A DNA stretch of 35,076 nucleotides from a virus. The notes beneath the pieces were generated by a model that was not told where the DNA came from, made no database searches, and was given only the letters and a program-made list of their open reading frames with translations. Below, one piece after another: positions 2,280 to 29,621 of this stretch. Within the stretch, counting starts at the first letter, position 1, and each line of letters begins with the position of its first letter. The position numbers and the translations under genes are program-made. The DNA lies in the IMG/VR virus record IMGVR_UViG_3300009151_000020, positions 1 through 35,076 of that record; one strand, written 5' to 3'.

Positions 2280-3826
2280 TACGGTCTCCTAAAAGACTCA
2301 ATAGGCGGCGCTCCTGAAGGAGTAGCGTTTGTTGTTCTTGTGCTTGAAGATTCCAAATTATACAAAGGCTGTTGATGAACAGAAGATAGCGTTTTATTCA
2401 TTTGATTAACGATACCTGATGCTCTATTTAAATTTCTTCTAATAGTTTCAATTGAAACCAATCCTTTATTAAATGCTACCGGATTAGGTATCACTTCTTC
2501 TAATATTTTTAAATCGCCGCCATTTAAAACACCTAAATTAAACATTTCTTTTGCTATCAAAGAAGCCGATTTTGATAGCTGGGTAATTTCTGCACGACGA
2601 GAAGGATTAACCATGTCCGATGGTGTAAAGTCTGCTATTCCTTCTTTAAGGTTATTAATTGCATTGTTTGTATTAATAACGCCTTTTAGTTCTTTTGTAT
2701 ATGATTCTGGCAATGGTTTAGATATTTGAACTTGAGTCCCTGCAAGTGAAGAACCAGGGCTAACAGGTGCGCCACCAGGCATTACTGATGGTGCACGTTG
2801 CCCAGGTATACCTGCACCTTGTTGTGCTCCAGCAGAAACAAACCCAGTGTTACCATAATTTACTGGGAATGTTTGTAACGTTTTTGGGTTAACTGCTATT
2901 AATCCCGTAGAACTTTGTTGGATTGACAATCCTGGATTTGCTTTTTCCCACGCAAATTTATCTTTGTCAAACTTAAATCTGTCTTGTGCCAACTTAGCTG
3001 TAACTCCTGGAGCATTAACAGCATCTTGAAGCGTTGCAATAACAGCAGGTGGAGCATTGTTTGCTATTGCGTTATCTAAATCAACTTGAGCTTTAGCCGG
3101 ATTGGTTTGCGGTATTGTAGGTGCGCCAGCTATTGGAGTGCCAACAGACGTTCTGGCAGCAGGGTTCATGTTAACAATCTTGTCGCCGACAACTTGCGGT
3201 TTTTCCATAGTTGCTTGAATAATTTGCAAACCAGAAGGTGACGAATGAGCTATTTTCCAAGCATTGGGGTTTGCTGCGTATTCTTTTAACGATTTTGCCA
3301 ACGCATCTTCTTCTGATTGCATTTTTACTGCATATTTTCCAGCTATTGGGTCTGCGTAAAGATTTCTTACATACAAAGGTATATCTTCTAACCCTTGAAT
3401 GTTATTTACTTCTTCTTTATGTCTCAATAATGATTTATCAAGTAAATTGCTTTCGTCTAACAATTGTTTGTTTGGCAAACCAGAAAGATTTAATTTTTTT
3501 GTACTTAACTCTAAGCGGTCTAATTCTTCTTTTCTACGCATTTCGTCTAATTTTGGGATTGACGAACCAGCACCGCCAGCCGCCAAAGCAGACCGCACTT
3601 TACCGTAATCAATAGTACCGTCTGGACCAATGGCATCTTTATAAGCGTTACTCATCGCGTTTTGTACTTTTTCTTCGCGTTGCGCTTTGCCGAGTGTGTA
3701 CTGCGCCAGCGCGTTCTGGTTTTCTTGCGCCCGAGCCGCAGCAGCTTGATCCATGCCGGTCACAAACGCATTGCCGATGCTCTGCGATCCGGGTGGGTTC
3801 AGTAGTCCAAAGTTTAGTTCAGCCAT
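2279..3826 (-). CDS. Putative DNA ejection protein (515 aa)
   Basis: The N-terminus is a glutamine- and alanine-rich helix (residues about 20-60, ARAQENQNALAQYTLGKAQ). The middle is low complexity, rich in Pro, Gly, Asn and Ala (about residues 225-375). A helical C-terminal domain contains KEMFNLGVLNGGDLKILEEV, a pattern I associate with podovirus internal proteins. The gene lies 6 bp downstream of the gp7-like gene and touches the next ejection gene. No enzymatic motif is visible. The order of one small and two large proteins matches the P22 gp7-gp20-gp16 set, so this is probably delivered into the host envelope during DNA entry. Exact equivalence is not established. Confidence 0.75.
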   Translation of the reverse strand: MAELNFGLLNPPGSQSIGNAFVTGMDQAAAARAQENQNALAQYTLGKAQREEKVQNAMSNAYKDAIGPDGTIDYGKVRSALAAGGAGSSIPKLDEMRRKEELDRLELSTKKLNLSGLPNKQLLDESNLLDKSLLRHKEEVNNIQGLEDIPLYVRNLYADPIAGKYAVKMQSEEDALAKSLKEYAANPNAWKIAHSSPSGLQIIQATMEKPQVVGDKIVNMNPAARTSVGTPIAGAPTIPQTNPAKAQVDLDNAIANNAPPAVIATLQDAVNAPGVTAKLAQDRFKFDKDKFAWEKANPGLSIQQSSTGLIAVNPKTLQTFPVNYGNTGFVSAGAQQGAGIPGQRAPSVMPGGAPVSPGSSLAGTQVQISKPLPESYTKELKGVINTNNAINNLKEGIADFTPSDMVNPSRRAEITQLSKSASLIAKEMFNLGVLNGGDLKILEEVIPNPVAFNKGLVSIETIRRNLNRASGIVNQMNKTLSSVHQQPLYNLESSSTRTTNATPSGAPPIESFRRP

Positions 3827-23176: not shown

Positions 23177-23579
23177 GGTCGGCGTCCTGATTGTTAATTT
23201 GAATCATAATGCCGCCGCCATCTTTGCCGGTAAGTTCCTGCCTAACTGTCTCTGACCAGCGCATCTGTGATTTCGTCCACCAGATCATTGCAGTCGTATC
23301 TCCGCCCATTGCTTTTTGAAATAGCGTCTTGCCTACCTGCCCGTTAGCCTTTGCCTTGCCTGATACCAGCTCAGTAACGAAGTGAGCGCGGAGTGTGTCG
23401 ATGTGGATTCCATCACGCACTAATGCGCCTATCTGGTCGATGGGCAGGCCATAACCTGAAAGCGCTTCTACCTGTTTACGCTCGGAATCAGTGGGTACAA
23501 AGGCTGGGCGGCCTGACCCTTCACGAGCACCGCCATTGCCGCCAATCTTTTTATAAGTAGGTTTATCAGTTTTAGCCAT
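23169..23579 (-). CDS. terS: Terminase small subunit (136 aa)
   Basis: The basic N-terminus (GGNGGAREGSGRPAF) precedes an HTH-like region (SERKQVEALSGYGLPIDQIGALVRDGIHIDTLRAHF). The helical core (GKAKANGQVGKTLFQKAMGGDTTAMIWWTKSQMRWSE) is typical of phage small terminases. It should bind the packaging start site and recruit the large subunit. It overlaps both the Mom-like gene upstream and terL downstream by 8 bases, so all three are probably translated together. Confidence 0.9.
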   Translation of the reverse strand: MAKTDKPTYKKIGGNGGAREGSGRPAFVPTDSERKQVEALSGYGLPIDQIGALVRDGIHIDTLRAHFVTELVSGKAKANGQVGKTLFQKAMGGDTTAMIWWTKSQMRWSETVRQELTGKDGGGIMIQINNQDADLV

Positions 23580-24264
23580 GTGTAACCTGCGCGAAAGGTT
23601 GATTCTCTGCGTGTAATGGAGCGGGTGGGTCGGTGTCGCGCCGCCGCTGTTCTGGCTGGTCGCCAGTCATCGCCTGCTTCACCCGCTTTGGATATGGTTT
23701 TGCTAATGGTGCAATCTTAGCACTCATCATCTTGTCAAGTGGCATTAGGTATCTGTGCTTTCCAGTTACAACCTTTTTAGGCAAGTTGCTTTGGTTTACA
23801 CCAGCATCATCAACTGTCTTTTTGTGTGACCACTTCCCTTTGTAAAAGACTTTTAGTGCCTTGCAACTTGGCCCAGTGTAAAGCCAGTTGCAGGCTTGGT
23901 AAATCCCACCATGATGGCCTTGATCTGGGTCAGCATAAGAAACTATCAAACGCAAACCTTTTTGTGACTTCACCAAAAACCTTACTGCCAATGCCATTAT
24001 TTTACTAACTGGCACTTCATGCTTTGTCAGAGCAATCCTTGTTAACTCACAACCATCCTCTTGCTGTAAGCCAAAAGGTTTAAGCATATTGTTATTAGCA
24101 CCTCTGCTAAAGATGACAACCCCAATAAACTTATTATCTTCCCATGCTGCTACTTTGACCAGTTTACCAACAGGCAGACATTTGCTGTAATGCCAATTTA
24201 AACAAGCATACTTAGCAGCCTCATGGCTTGCCCAGTCAATTTTAAGCTCAGGCTTGTCTTGCAT
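23572..24264 (-). CDS. Mom-like DNA adenine modification protein (230 aa)
   Basis: The start at ATG 24264 is chosen; an extension to 24294 needs a TTG and lacks support. Residues about 8-130 look like the Mom family, which has an acetyltransferase-like fold and makes N6-(carbamoylmethyl)adenine in phage Mu. Landmarks are NWHYSKCLPVGK (23-34), FIGVVIFSRGANNNM (46-60), ELTRIAL with Arg77, and SYADPDQGHHGGIYQACNW with Asp112 and Tyr122. The last 60 residues are a basic, proline-rich tail. It lies between a ParB-like gene and the terminase genes, so DNA may be modified just before packaging. Family assignment is from memory of the conserved blocks. Confidence 0.78.
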   Translation of the reverse strand: MQDKPELKIDWASHEAAKYACLNWHYSKCLPVGKLVKVAAWEDNKFIGVVIFSRGANNNMLKPFGLQQEDGCELTRIALTKHEVPVSKIMALAVRFLVKSQKGLRLIVSYADPDQGHHGGIYQACNWLYTGPSCKALKVFYKGKWSHKKTVDDAGVNQSNLPKKVVTGKHRYLMPLDKMMSAKIAPLAKPYPKRVKQAMTGDQPEQRRRDTDPPAPLHAENQPFAQVTHG

Positions 24265-24751
24265 CGAACTCTTTCCCGCAATGAGGACAAGCAATCCACT
24301 TCGGTTCGAGTTCGTCCAACTTTCCTTGATCGTCCTCTGTTCCTGGTTGGAAGTCTGGCGTATTCAATGCTGCAATCTCATCGGCTGTAAACCCAGTCAT
24401 ATCCAGGTCGAAGCTCATGTCCTTCAGGTCTGTCAACTCAACCGCCAGCATTTCATCGTCCCACCCAGCATTGAGTGCCAGCTTGTTATCAGCAATAACA
24501 TAGGCTTTTTTCTGTGCCTCTGTCAAATGCGTGAGCCTGATGCTTGGTAGGTCAGCTAGTCCTAGCTTTCTCGCTGCCATCACTCTGCCATGCCCTGCGA
24601 TGATGCTTCCAGTCTCGTCGATCAGCACCGGATTCGTGAAGCCGAACTCTTTGATGCTTGCTGCAATCTGCGCTACCTGACCGTCTGAATGCGTGCGGCT
24701 GTTCCGAGCATACGGAATAAGCGCCTCTATTTTCACCTGTTCAATTTTCAT
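24248..24751 (-). CDS. ParB/Srx-fold protein with C-terminal zinc-ribbon-like end (167 aa)
   Basis: Residues 5-70 form a ParB N-terminal domain (IPYARNSRTHSDGQVAQIAASIKEFGFTNPVLID, then GHGRVMAARKLGL). The GHGR box is at 53-56. Residues about 75-110 (LTEAQKKAYVIADNKLALNAGWD) are the usual extension in phage ParB-like proteins. The end, CPHCGKEF, gives one CxxC pair. Phage ParB-like proteins often neighbour DNA methyltransferases; here the partner is Mom-like. There is no ParA or centromere array, so partitioning is unlikely. AGGAAAT precedes the ATG. It is the first gene of the late block and may regulate or modify DNA. Confidence 0.85.
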   Translation of the reverse strand: MKIEQVKIEALIPYARNSRTHSDGQVAQIAASIKEFGFTNPVLIDETGSIIAGHGRVMAARKLGLADLPSIRLTHLTEAQKKAYVIADNKLALNAGWDDEMLAVELTDLKDMSFDLDMTGFTADEIAALNTPDFQPGTEDDQGKLDELEPKWIACPHCGKEFDARQA

Positions 24752-24979: not shown

Positions 24980-25165
24980 ATGCGCAAAACCCACCTGGCA
25001 CACACCGTAAAATTTGGCCCCATCTGCAAAAACGGTCGAATTGGCGGGGCACTTGGAGGCGAACACCTTACCGTTAAATTCTCAGAGTTTGTAAATGAAC
25101 CTGCAAACTACCAGTGCGAGCGATGCAAAGGAAGCAAGTTGTTCACTTTCTTATCACGCAAATAA
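24980..25165 (+). CDS. Small protein with CxxC motif (61 aa)
   Basis: A strong Shine-Dalgarno (AAGGAG) lies 6 bases before the ATG. The sequence has GALGGEHLTVKFSEFVN and ends in ANYQCERCKGSKLFTFLSRK, so one CxxC pair is present with another Cys near residue 16. It may be a small zinc-binding DNA- or RNA-contacting protein. It is the first gene of a two-gene plus-strand unit divergent from the late operon. I do not recognise the family. Confidence 0.7.
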   Translation: MRKTHLAHTVKFGPICKNGRIGGALGGEHLTVKFSEFVNEPANYQCERCKGSKLFTFLSRK

Positions 25166-25212: not shown

Positions 25213-25560
25213 ATGAACTTCACATCAAGCGTAAACAAAATCGCAAACAGCAACCGGCCCTTTGCGGTTGTCGTTGCATATCAAATATCAGTCTATCCTA
25301 AAGGTGAAGTCTTGAGCCAGCACAAGAGTCACGAGCTGGCAGAGGCAGCGATGAACGCGAGTCTTTTGGCTCGCAACGGCTGGTGCAAGATCATGGATGC
25401 CAGGGAATACGCCGAGCCTTTAAAAAAAGGTCGCCCTGCTGAACTCAAAGATGGTCGGGCAATCAACGTCTACCTCGATGCCGCATCGATCACCGCAGCA
25501 GAGGCGCTAGGCAACGGTTCGATAAGCGCCGGCATCAGAGCAGCACTTGCAGATAAATAA
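25213..25560 (+). CDS. Ribbon-helix-helix-like regulator (115 aa)
   Basis: The start at 25213 is preferred because GGAGAG lies about 6 bases upstream; an in-frame start at 25114 would overlap the gene before. The N-terminal part is a small alpha/beta domain (FAVVVAYQISVYPKGEV, HELAEAAMNASLLARNG). The C-terminal 40 residues (GRAINVYLDAASITAAEALGNGSISAGIRAALA) match a ribbon-helix-helix pattern seen in plasmid and phage repressors. It is a candidate for binding the palindrome at 24861-24879. Its 3' end overlaps the minus-strand nuclease gene by 91 bases. Confidence 0.75.
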   Translation: MNFTSSVNKIANSNRPFAVVVAYQISVYPKGEVLSQHKSHELAEAAMNASLLARNGWCKIMDAREYAEPLKKGRPAELKDGRAINVYLDAASITAAEALGNGSISAGIRAALADK

Positions 25561-28844: not shown

Positions 28845-29621
28845 TTATATTTCATTGCCCATTAAAATTTTCCATGCTGTTGCGGCACACAAAGGCACTT
28901 GTCCATTCCCAATGGCTTTAAGTCTGTCCACCCTAGAGGCCACCCCATTAGCCACTCGACCCACGTTGGGTTCAGATGACCACCAACCTGCGCCGCCAAC
29001 GTCGGCGTGTGCAAATTGCTTTCGCTTGGCGCGTTTGTTTCCTTGGCATTGTGTGCTGTTGGAGTGGGCCATATCGGTTTTGCATATCGTTTCTGCATTG
29101 ACGGTGCTAATTGATTCGCTGTGGCTGTTACTGTGGGCCACAATCCAGATTCGCGCTCTAAGATGGGGCGCACCAACGTCTGCTGCTGATACGACACCCC
29201 ATCTTGCATCAAACCCCAGCGCGGCCAAATCTCCAAGCACTGTTCCAAGTCCGCAAGAAGTGAGCATTGGACTGTTTTCCACGAATGCGTATCGTGGTCG
29301 TACTTCCCCAATAATCCTTGCCATTTCAGACCAGAGTCCTGATCGACTGCCGGAGATTCCTGCACCGTGTCCTGCGGCACTGATGTCTTGACAGGGAAAC
29401 CCTCCAGATACAACTTCAACAATTCCTCGCCACGGCTTGCCGTCAAAGGTGCGAACGTCATCCCAAATCGGGAAAGGCGGGAGAATTCCGTCATTTTGTC
29501 GGGCACACAATACGCTTGCTGGGTACGGTTCCCATTCAACGGCGCAGACGGTTCGCCATCCGAGAAGTTTTCCGCCGAGAATTCCTCCACCAGCGCCTGC
29601 GAAAAGAGCCAGCTCATTCAT
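28845..29621 (-). CDS. C5-cytosine DNA methyltransferase (258 aa)
   Basis: The enzyme should transfer a methyl group from S-adenosylmethionine to cytosine C5. Motif I is FAGAGGG (7-13), motif IV is GGFPCQDIS with catalytic Cys77, motif VI is ENSP (115-118), motif VIII is RARIWIVA (155-162), and motif X is AIGNGQVP near the end. The region between motifs VIII and X, which holds the target recognition domain, is short, and total length is below the usual 300-plus. Its ATG overlaps the Cro-like stop. A second ORF of 251 residues lies entirely inside it in another frame. It could protect phage DNA from restriction. Confidence 0.9.
   Translation of the reverse strand: MNELALFAGAGGGILGGKLLGWRTVCAVEWEPYPASVLCARQNDGILPPFPIWDDVRTFDGKPWRGIVEVVSGGFPCQDISAAGHGAGISGSRSGLWSEMARIIGEVRPRYAFVENSPMLTSCGLGTVLGDLAALGFDARWGVVSAADVGAPHLRARIWIVAHSNSHSESISTVNAETICKTDMAHSNSTQCQGNKRAKRKQFAHADVGGAGWWSSEPNVGRVANGVASRVDRLKAIGNGQVPLCAATAWKILMGNEI
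28862..29617 (-). CDS. Nested alternative-frame protein within the methyltransferase gene (251 aa)
   Basis: The ATG lies four bases after the methyltransferase start (ATGAATGAG). The frame stays open for 251 codons, ending 17 bases before its host gene. The product begins MSWLFSQALVEEFSAENFSDG and contains APLTASRGEELLKLYLEGFP, SLLADLEQCLEIWPRWGLMQDG, WPTPTA, and GGHLNPTWVEWLMGWPLGWT near the end. From memory these blocks match a frequent phage protein of unknown function. AGGGA lies 6 bases before this ATG, a better spacing than for the methyltransferase ATG. No catalytic motif is seen. Either both proteins are made or this frame is constrained by its partner. Confidence 0.6.
   Translation of the reverse strand: MSWLFSQALVEEFSAENFSDGEPSAPLNGNRTQQAYCVPDKMTEFSRLSRFGMTFAPLTASRGEELLKLYLEGFPVKTSVPQDTVQESPAVDQDSGLKWQGLLGKYDHDTHSWKTVQCSLLADLEQCLEIWPRWGLMQDGVSYQQQTLVRPILERESGLWPTVTATANQLAPSMQKRYAKPIWPTPTAHNAKETNAPSESNLHTPTLAAQVGGHLNPTWVEWLMGWPLGWTDLKPLGMDKCLCVPQQHGKF

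Follow-up and report, generated by a model that had tools for sequence, protein, structure and literature searches.

Analysis of a 35,076-nt stretch of viral DNA (IMG/VR record IMGVR_UViG_3300009151_000020, hereafter the window) showed that its ParB-like gene and the Mom gene that follows it belong to a widespread arrangement, in which a DNA-modifying enzyme and the C-terminal tail of the ParB protein are swapped between phages as one cassette and the ParB core remains constant. The class of this tail tracks the type of enzyme and not the core. Together, the two genes probably form a two-part DNA-modification cassette composed of a ParB adaptor core, an enzyme-specific docking tail and an exchangeable enzyme.

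The locus consists of four consecutive minus-strand genes (24751-21827). These encode the ParB-like protein (24751-24248; 167 aa, C-terminal end ...WIACPHCGKEFDARQA), a Mom-family DNA adenine modification enzyme of GNAT fold (24264-23572; 230 aa from its ATG), the terminase small subunit TerS (23579-23169; 136 aa; phrog_309, 4.5e-13) and the terminase large subunit TerL (23176-21827; 449 aa, TTG start; PF03237, 2.3e-17, and PF17289). An earlier, sequence-only reading had described these genes as each overlapping the next, and the open reading frames agree with it, with overlaps of 17, 8 and 8 nt in gene order. Its statement that no ParA is present was borne out as well: profile searches with PF13614 and PF01656, each of which recovered 14 of 14 positive controls, detected no ParA-type ATPase in the 35 kb record, which is possibly incomplete. 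Since no ParA accompanies it, partitioning, the role implied by the usual phage annotation "ParB-like partition", is unlikely. Between the ParB cassette and a VRR nuclease gene lie two small plus-strand ORFs (24980-25165 and 25213-25560), oriented opposite to their neighbours and preceded by plausible ribosome-binding sites; a Pfam search of both gave no match. The window further contains a gene for a short C5-cytosine DNA methylase (28845-29621, minus strand; PF00145, E 2.7e-30), and the phage may therefore carry two kinds of DNA modification.

The 230-residue protein, which had been called Mom-like from its sequence, was identified as Mom by profile search (PF25680, E 4.4e-39; 134.7 bits against a curated cut-off of 27.1), and it also matched phrog_1384 (E 2.2e-55). 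Its AlphaFold2 (AF2) model (pLDDT 87.8) has the GNAT-like Mom fold, and the best match in the PDB was the crystal structure of Mu Mom (8BV8, E 2.7e-11), whose entry describes an inactive S124A mutant. When 55 Moms, that of Mu among them, were aligned, S87 of the window protein fell opposite Mu Ser124 and was nearly invariant, and E73, L74, R76, S109, G119, Y122 and Y172 are invariant; Mu Mom also keeps H25, Y26, E73, R76, S109, D112, Y122 and Y172 of the window protein. Given the correspondence of S87 to Mu Ser124 and the retention of the invariant residues, the enzyme looks catalytically intact as judged from its sequence, and its product would presumably be N6-carbamoylmethyl-adenine, that is, adenine bearing a carbamoylmethyl group. 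Although family and fold are the same, the Mu and window proteins are about 21% identical, and Mu mom lies at the genome end whereas the window gene precedes the terminase.

The ParB-like protein is built from a ParB_N domain (PF02195, 3.9e-07; 30.5 bits against a cut-off of 26.3) and, past codon 126, a C-terminal stretch of some 40 residues; it matched phrog_620 (4.6e-63) and also phrog_498. The ParB/Srx-fold core (codons 1-126; 24374..24751, minus strand) was modelled by AF2 with pLDDT >90 across most of its length, and its closest structures are Noc, ParB and Spo0J proteins (Z about 15, rmsd 1.4-1.8 across 91-92 residues; Z 15.5 for Noc 7NG0). With these canonical CTPase clamps it shares the N-terminal fold and the GxxR nucleotide-site motif, of which G53 and R56 are invariant in alignment A5, and the modelled fold suggests nucleotide-dependent loading onto DNA. 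Unlike them, the 167-aa protein has neither a parS-binding HTH nor a C-terminal dimer domain detectable by profile search, and it has no ParA. The tail (codons 127-167 plus stop; 24248..24373, minus strand) follows the motif PDFxPGTEDDQGKLDELxPKxxxCPxCGxEF and contains what appears to be half of a zinc-ribbon knuckle, C155-P156-H157-C158 (codons at 24278..24289, minus strand), recognised from the sequence and from weak zinc-ribbon matches (PF24460, PF13248). C155, P156 and C158 are invariant in alignments A3 and A5. Among the PADLOC defence profiles, the sole match was to a methyltransferase model whose span takes in the ParB region. As a separate observation, five enterobacterial prophage contigs (L496-L500) break at the identical base of the ParB gene (locus position 3379, directly after GCCCGGTA) and run beyond it into differing sequences, some of them from late genes; this may be a recurrent deletion point, a packaging-site cut or an artefact.

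The adjacency of ParB and Mom is far above chance. A Mom-first scan of viral contigs for the Mom type of the window (type A) yielded 73 loci, 67 of them with enough upstream sequence. ParB lay directly upstream in 65 of these 67, and the two exceptions are Mom fragments that comprise only a short C-terminal piece. A second, very divergent type (type B) was searched with the Mom of Psychrobacter phage Y8A, which is annotated as "hypothetical" but matches PF25680 at E 1.8e-55; of its 79 loci, 71 have ParB as the immediate upstream neighbour, and seven of the remaining eight have it within about 1 kb. In bacterial genomes the pair was present in 21 of 35 loci, including those of Tolumonas, Yersinia, Serratia, Nitrosomonas, Methylosinus, Paenibacillus and Lysinibacillus. 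Among named phages it occurs in Enterococcus phage phiEf11, Microbacterium phage Appa, Salinibacter phage B2_17 and Arthrobacter phage Zartrosa, where a small gene separates the two, and it extends to Appavirus, Marthavirus and prophages across many phyla. The survey thus supports the neighbourhood noted in the window but not the idea of an undescribed one-off, because individual pairs are already annotated in public records. The Moms of Mu, Salmonella VSiP, Alsa_2, phiSHEF2 and ICP1 have no ParB annotated alongside, so that the link is confined to particular Mom lineages. Mom genes of actinomycete prophages from Lentzea and Crossiella (L343, L345) likewise have no ParB, and terminase-like genes lie directly downstream of them. 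Two loci (L028, 516-1723; L030, 500-1710) carry tandem Mom genes after a single ParB with a very divergent core, and three contigs (L262, L277, L311) each hold two ParBs with type-B Mom partners. Many pairs neighbour the terminase, but this is no requirement: those of Appa, Zartrosa and phiEf11 lie away from it.

The same ParB family was also found with other enzymes in related phages, where the genes again overlap and usually again lie just before the terminase. Judged by family, these partners are known or predicted DNA-modifying enzymes. Moraxella phage Mcat8 has a C5 methylase in this position, Pasteurella phage Pmp13 a protein in which ABC ATPase and GNAT domains are combined, and L177 and L218 have D12 methylases; TAGT glycosyltransferases, in three divergent versions, occur in E. 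coli phage 613R10, L179 and L208. In a fused alternative, the ParB core is joined to an N6/N4 methyltransferase (N6_N4_Mtase). The earlier remark that phage ParBs accompany methyltransferases holds accordingly, with 38 of 179 dereplicated ParBs fused to one; a natural ParB-Mom fusion was not found among the loci examined. In one locus (L185, 1378-2382) the same ParB is followed by a PLP-dependent enzyme (PALP, below the Pfam cut-off), which is possibly an unrecognised DNA-modifying enzyme. A misfit neighbour was seen in Fusobacterium phage phiFN37, where a ParB with a CPxC tail is paired with a small uncharacterised gene. The family further includes YnaK of the E. coli Rac prophage, a ParB/Srx family N-terminal domain protein encoded upstream of the terminase (L515, 4079-4682; L516, 4079-5795). 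Intact Rac-like prophages carry ParB, a gene in the TAGT position and the terminase, and intact YnaK copies are followed by a TAGT glycosyltransferase, whereas the K-12-type copy, a truncated form, no longer has this partner. A match to this ParB family is present in 1575 of 5426 E. coli genomes.

The position directly before TerS and TerL in most loci raises the possibility of a packaging function, in which ParB would nick or mark the packaging start and base modification would control terminase cutting. The pac site of phage P1, which requires Dam methylation, offers a parallel (PMC12707154), and the ParB-methyltransferase BCE_0392 of a Bacillus cereus prophage, for which no specificity was identified, was reported to have a concatenation activity linked to nicking, and a role in replication or packaging has been suggested for it (PMC3459991; cited also in PMC5512222). 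However, the Appa pair is located off the terminase, among replication genes behind SSB, and the enzymes found in one and the same place differ greatly in their chemistry, a diversity more in keeping with protection than with a single pac signal; this explanation is quite unlikely. Several ParB/Srx domains, those of BCE_0392 and Osa among them, have also been described as nucleases (PMC5512222), and endonuclease domains are joined to Moms of jumbo phages (PMC7824862). Both reports could fit a restriction-like pair, in which a ParB/Srx nuclease would attack DNA of the host or of rivals and its partner would protect that of the phage. Such a nuclease would have to be blocked by adenine-, cytosine- and sugar-modifying enzymes alike, the best structural relatives of the core are nucleotide-binding ParB/Noc proteins, and the genes adjoin the terminase in a late position, all of which make this scheme very unlikely.

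Comparison of related loci revealed how the enzymes are exchanged. At the DNA level, the core of the window is 78-81% identical over nt 1-379 to those of fused ParB-methyltransferase genes (best 81.4% over nt 1-377) and at most 77.8% identical, in long matches, to other Mom-linked ParBs; the best fusion cores are thus as close to it as the Mom-linked cores, or closer. Similarity to the fusions ends near nt 377-387 (codon 126-129), and in most of them at nt 377-379. Elsewhere, Mom-linked and fused cores reach up to 97% protein identity. The fusions (phrog_498; BCE_0392) accordingly share the core lineage and the slot of the window, but the window protein ends after its tail: the CPxC tail takes the place of the methyltransferase domain and Mom is a separate protein. 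One such relative (L099) has TerL 92% and the VRR nuclease 75% identical to those of the window, with the common order NinB-Ref-VRR-[cassette]-TerS-TerL, and holds a ParB-methyltransferase fusion in the slot. The exchange is most precisely delimited in a locus with ParB and Mom (L087) and one with a ParB-methyltransferase fusion (L222). Their identity is 93.6% in the 1825 nt upstream, 94.6% as far as ParB nt 379 and 93.9% in 2001 nt of the terminase region downstream. The segment between is unrelated, being tail plus Mom in one and the methyltransferase domain in the other, and the break falls at codon 126 of ParB. The same pattern separates an ABC-GNAT locus (L163) from a methyltransferase locus (L210), with about 80.6% identity on both sides. 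These comparisons define the exchanged unit as tail plus enzyme. The slot upstream of the terminase is a hotspot of recombination that can be filled in many different ways, and the two genes might accordingly be mere passengers in it with no functional link. This view is largely refuted and hardly credible: ParB and Mom remain paired in places other than the slot and in different phyla, the edge of the exchanged segment lies within parB, a change of enzyme brings a change of tail, and methyltransferases occur fused to the core.

The relation of tail to partner was counted on the 179 dereplicated ParBs, using tail classes drawn from text patterns that were partly defined after the data had been seen. 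All 69 ParBs with a type-A Mom (MomA) have the CPxC tail, and all 10 with an ABC-GNAT partner have a GYKC tail; for type-B Moms (MomB), 44 of 49 have a cysteine-free QxxI...NGN tail by pattern and the other five look alike by eye. In ParB-first loci, the full tail with CPxC and DQGxL accompanies 40 of 40 type-A Moms, and CPxC without DQGxL accompanies 9 of 9 C5 methylases, so that the knuckle by itself does not specify a Mom partner. In a tree built from the cores alone, partner labels change at least 57 times. This tree (132 columns) is poorly resolved, with 71 of 172 branches open, and reliance was therefore placed on its starred branches only, where independent pairs agree in 12 of 12 cases for MomA (p 0.0005), 8 of 8 for MomB and 7 of 7 for type A versus type B. 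The correlation could arise by linkage alone, as the tail lies inside the exchanged segment. A function of the tail is nevertheless favoured, because CPxC and the surrounding motif are conserved while identity among CPxC-tailed ParBs, of the cores and of the whole proteins alike, falls to 27-36%.

A knuckle-bearing protein encoded just upstream of mom also recalls phage Mu, where the zinc protein Com controls Mom. As in the window, the small com gene of Mu lies directly upstream of mom and overlaps it, but in the window a ParB-fold protein stands in its place and no Com gene was recognised by profile search. The zinc knuckle and the overlapping junction might then control the translation or timing of a toxic Mom. 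Mom has been reported to be toxic on expression and silent in lysogens (PMC12707154), and the tail (DELEPKWIACPHCGKEF) gave a weak profile match to Com (DSFDHIEIRCPRCKRHI). With a probability of 9%, that match is too weak to establish homology, and no Com family profile was matched. A special RNA structure at the mom start was rejected, its folds being not clearly better than those of shuffled sequences (z -1.2). Moreover, the tail is retained where mom lies 160-220 nt away or behind another gene (Zartrosa, L146), which marks it as a protein-level feature and not merely a ribosome-binding site for mom; the ParBs of type-B Moms have tails without cysteines, and those of C5 methylases have the knuckle. 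Control of Mom synthesis by the ParB tail is therefore unlikely.

The adaptor arrangement accounts for a core that occurs in two forms, one with an enzyme fused to it and one with a separate enzyme and a matching tail. The simplest reading of this pattern is that core and enzyme have to work jointly and that the tail substitutes for a covalent link. On this basis, the ParB/Srx core would bind DNA and probably a nucleotide, and would load its partner enzyme onto phage DNA or concentrate it there. Docking would fall to the C-terminal tail (for this Mom, DQGxL ... CPxC), and in the methyltransferase case covalent fusion to the same core would replace docking. Once the phage genome has been replicated, and shortly before it is packaged, Mom may then attach its bulky group to adenines and thereby shield virion DNA against restriction in the next host; enzyme and tail would pass between phages as a single cassette, leaving the core in place. 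That Moms of Mu, Salmonella VSiP, ICP1, phiSHEF2 and actinomycete prophages function without a ParB speaks against a strict need for an adaptor and indicates that ParB is dispensable for the chemistry. A role of ParB in directing or regulating modification, as the sequence-only reading had proposed, is the best-supported interpretation.

Parts of this picture are already known, namely the ParB-methyltransferase fusions and the annotation of ParB and Mom as neighbours in public records. In phiEf11 (PHIEF11_0062/0063) and Appa (gp46/gp47), a CPxC-tailed ParB-like gene directly precedes a Mom 45-50% identical to that of the window; the genes are annotated singly as "ParB-like" and "Mom-like" with no stated link, and their genomic context differs. 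We found no description of the exchangeable cassette, the tail rule or the ParB-Mom pair in the literature searched, whose coverage did not extend to the most relevant older surveys; within it, enzyme exchange on a common ParB core with an enzyme-specific tail is apparently new. A more general proposal, put forward tentatively and with less than even confidence, is that the nucleotide-gated loading core of ParB fold serves as a universal phage platform, into which unrelated enzymes plug by fusion or through tails and on which cassettes recombine at a fixed point in parB. If so, a phage could change its DNA chemistry in one step.

The modular cassette gives many phage proteins annotated as "ParB-like partition" a testable function, and the coexistence of fused and split versions makes the role of ParB in the ParB-methyltransferase fusions testable as well. 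Genes that follow this ParB core provide a route to unrecognised DNA-modifying enzymes. More broadly, the cassette suggests how phages can quickly change a DNA chemistry that resists restriction.
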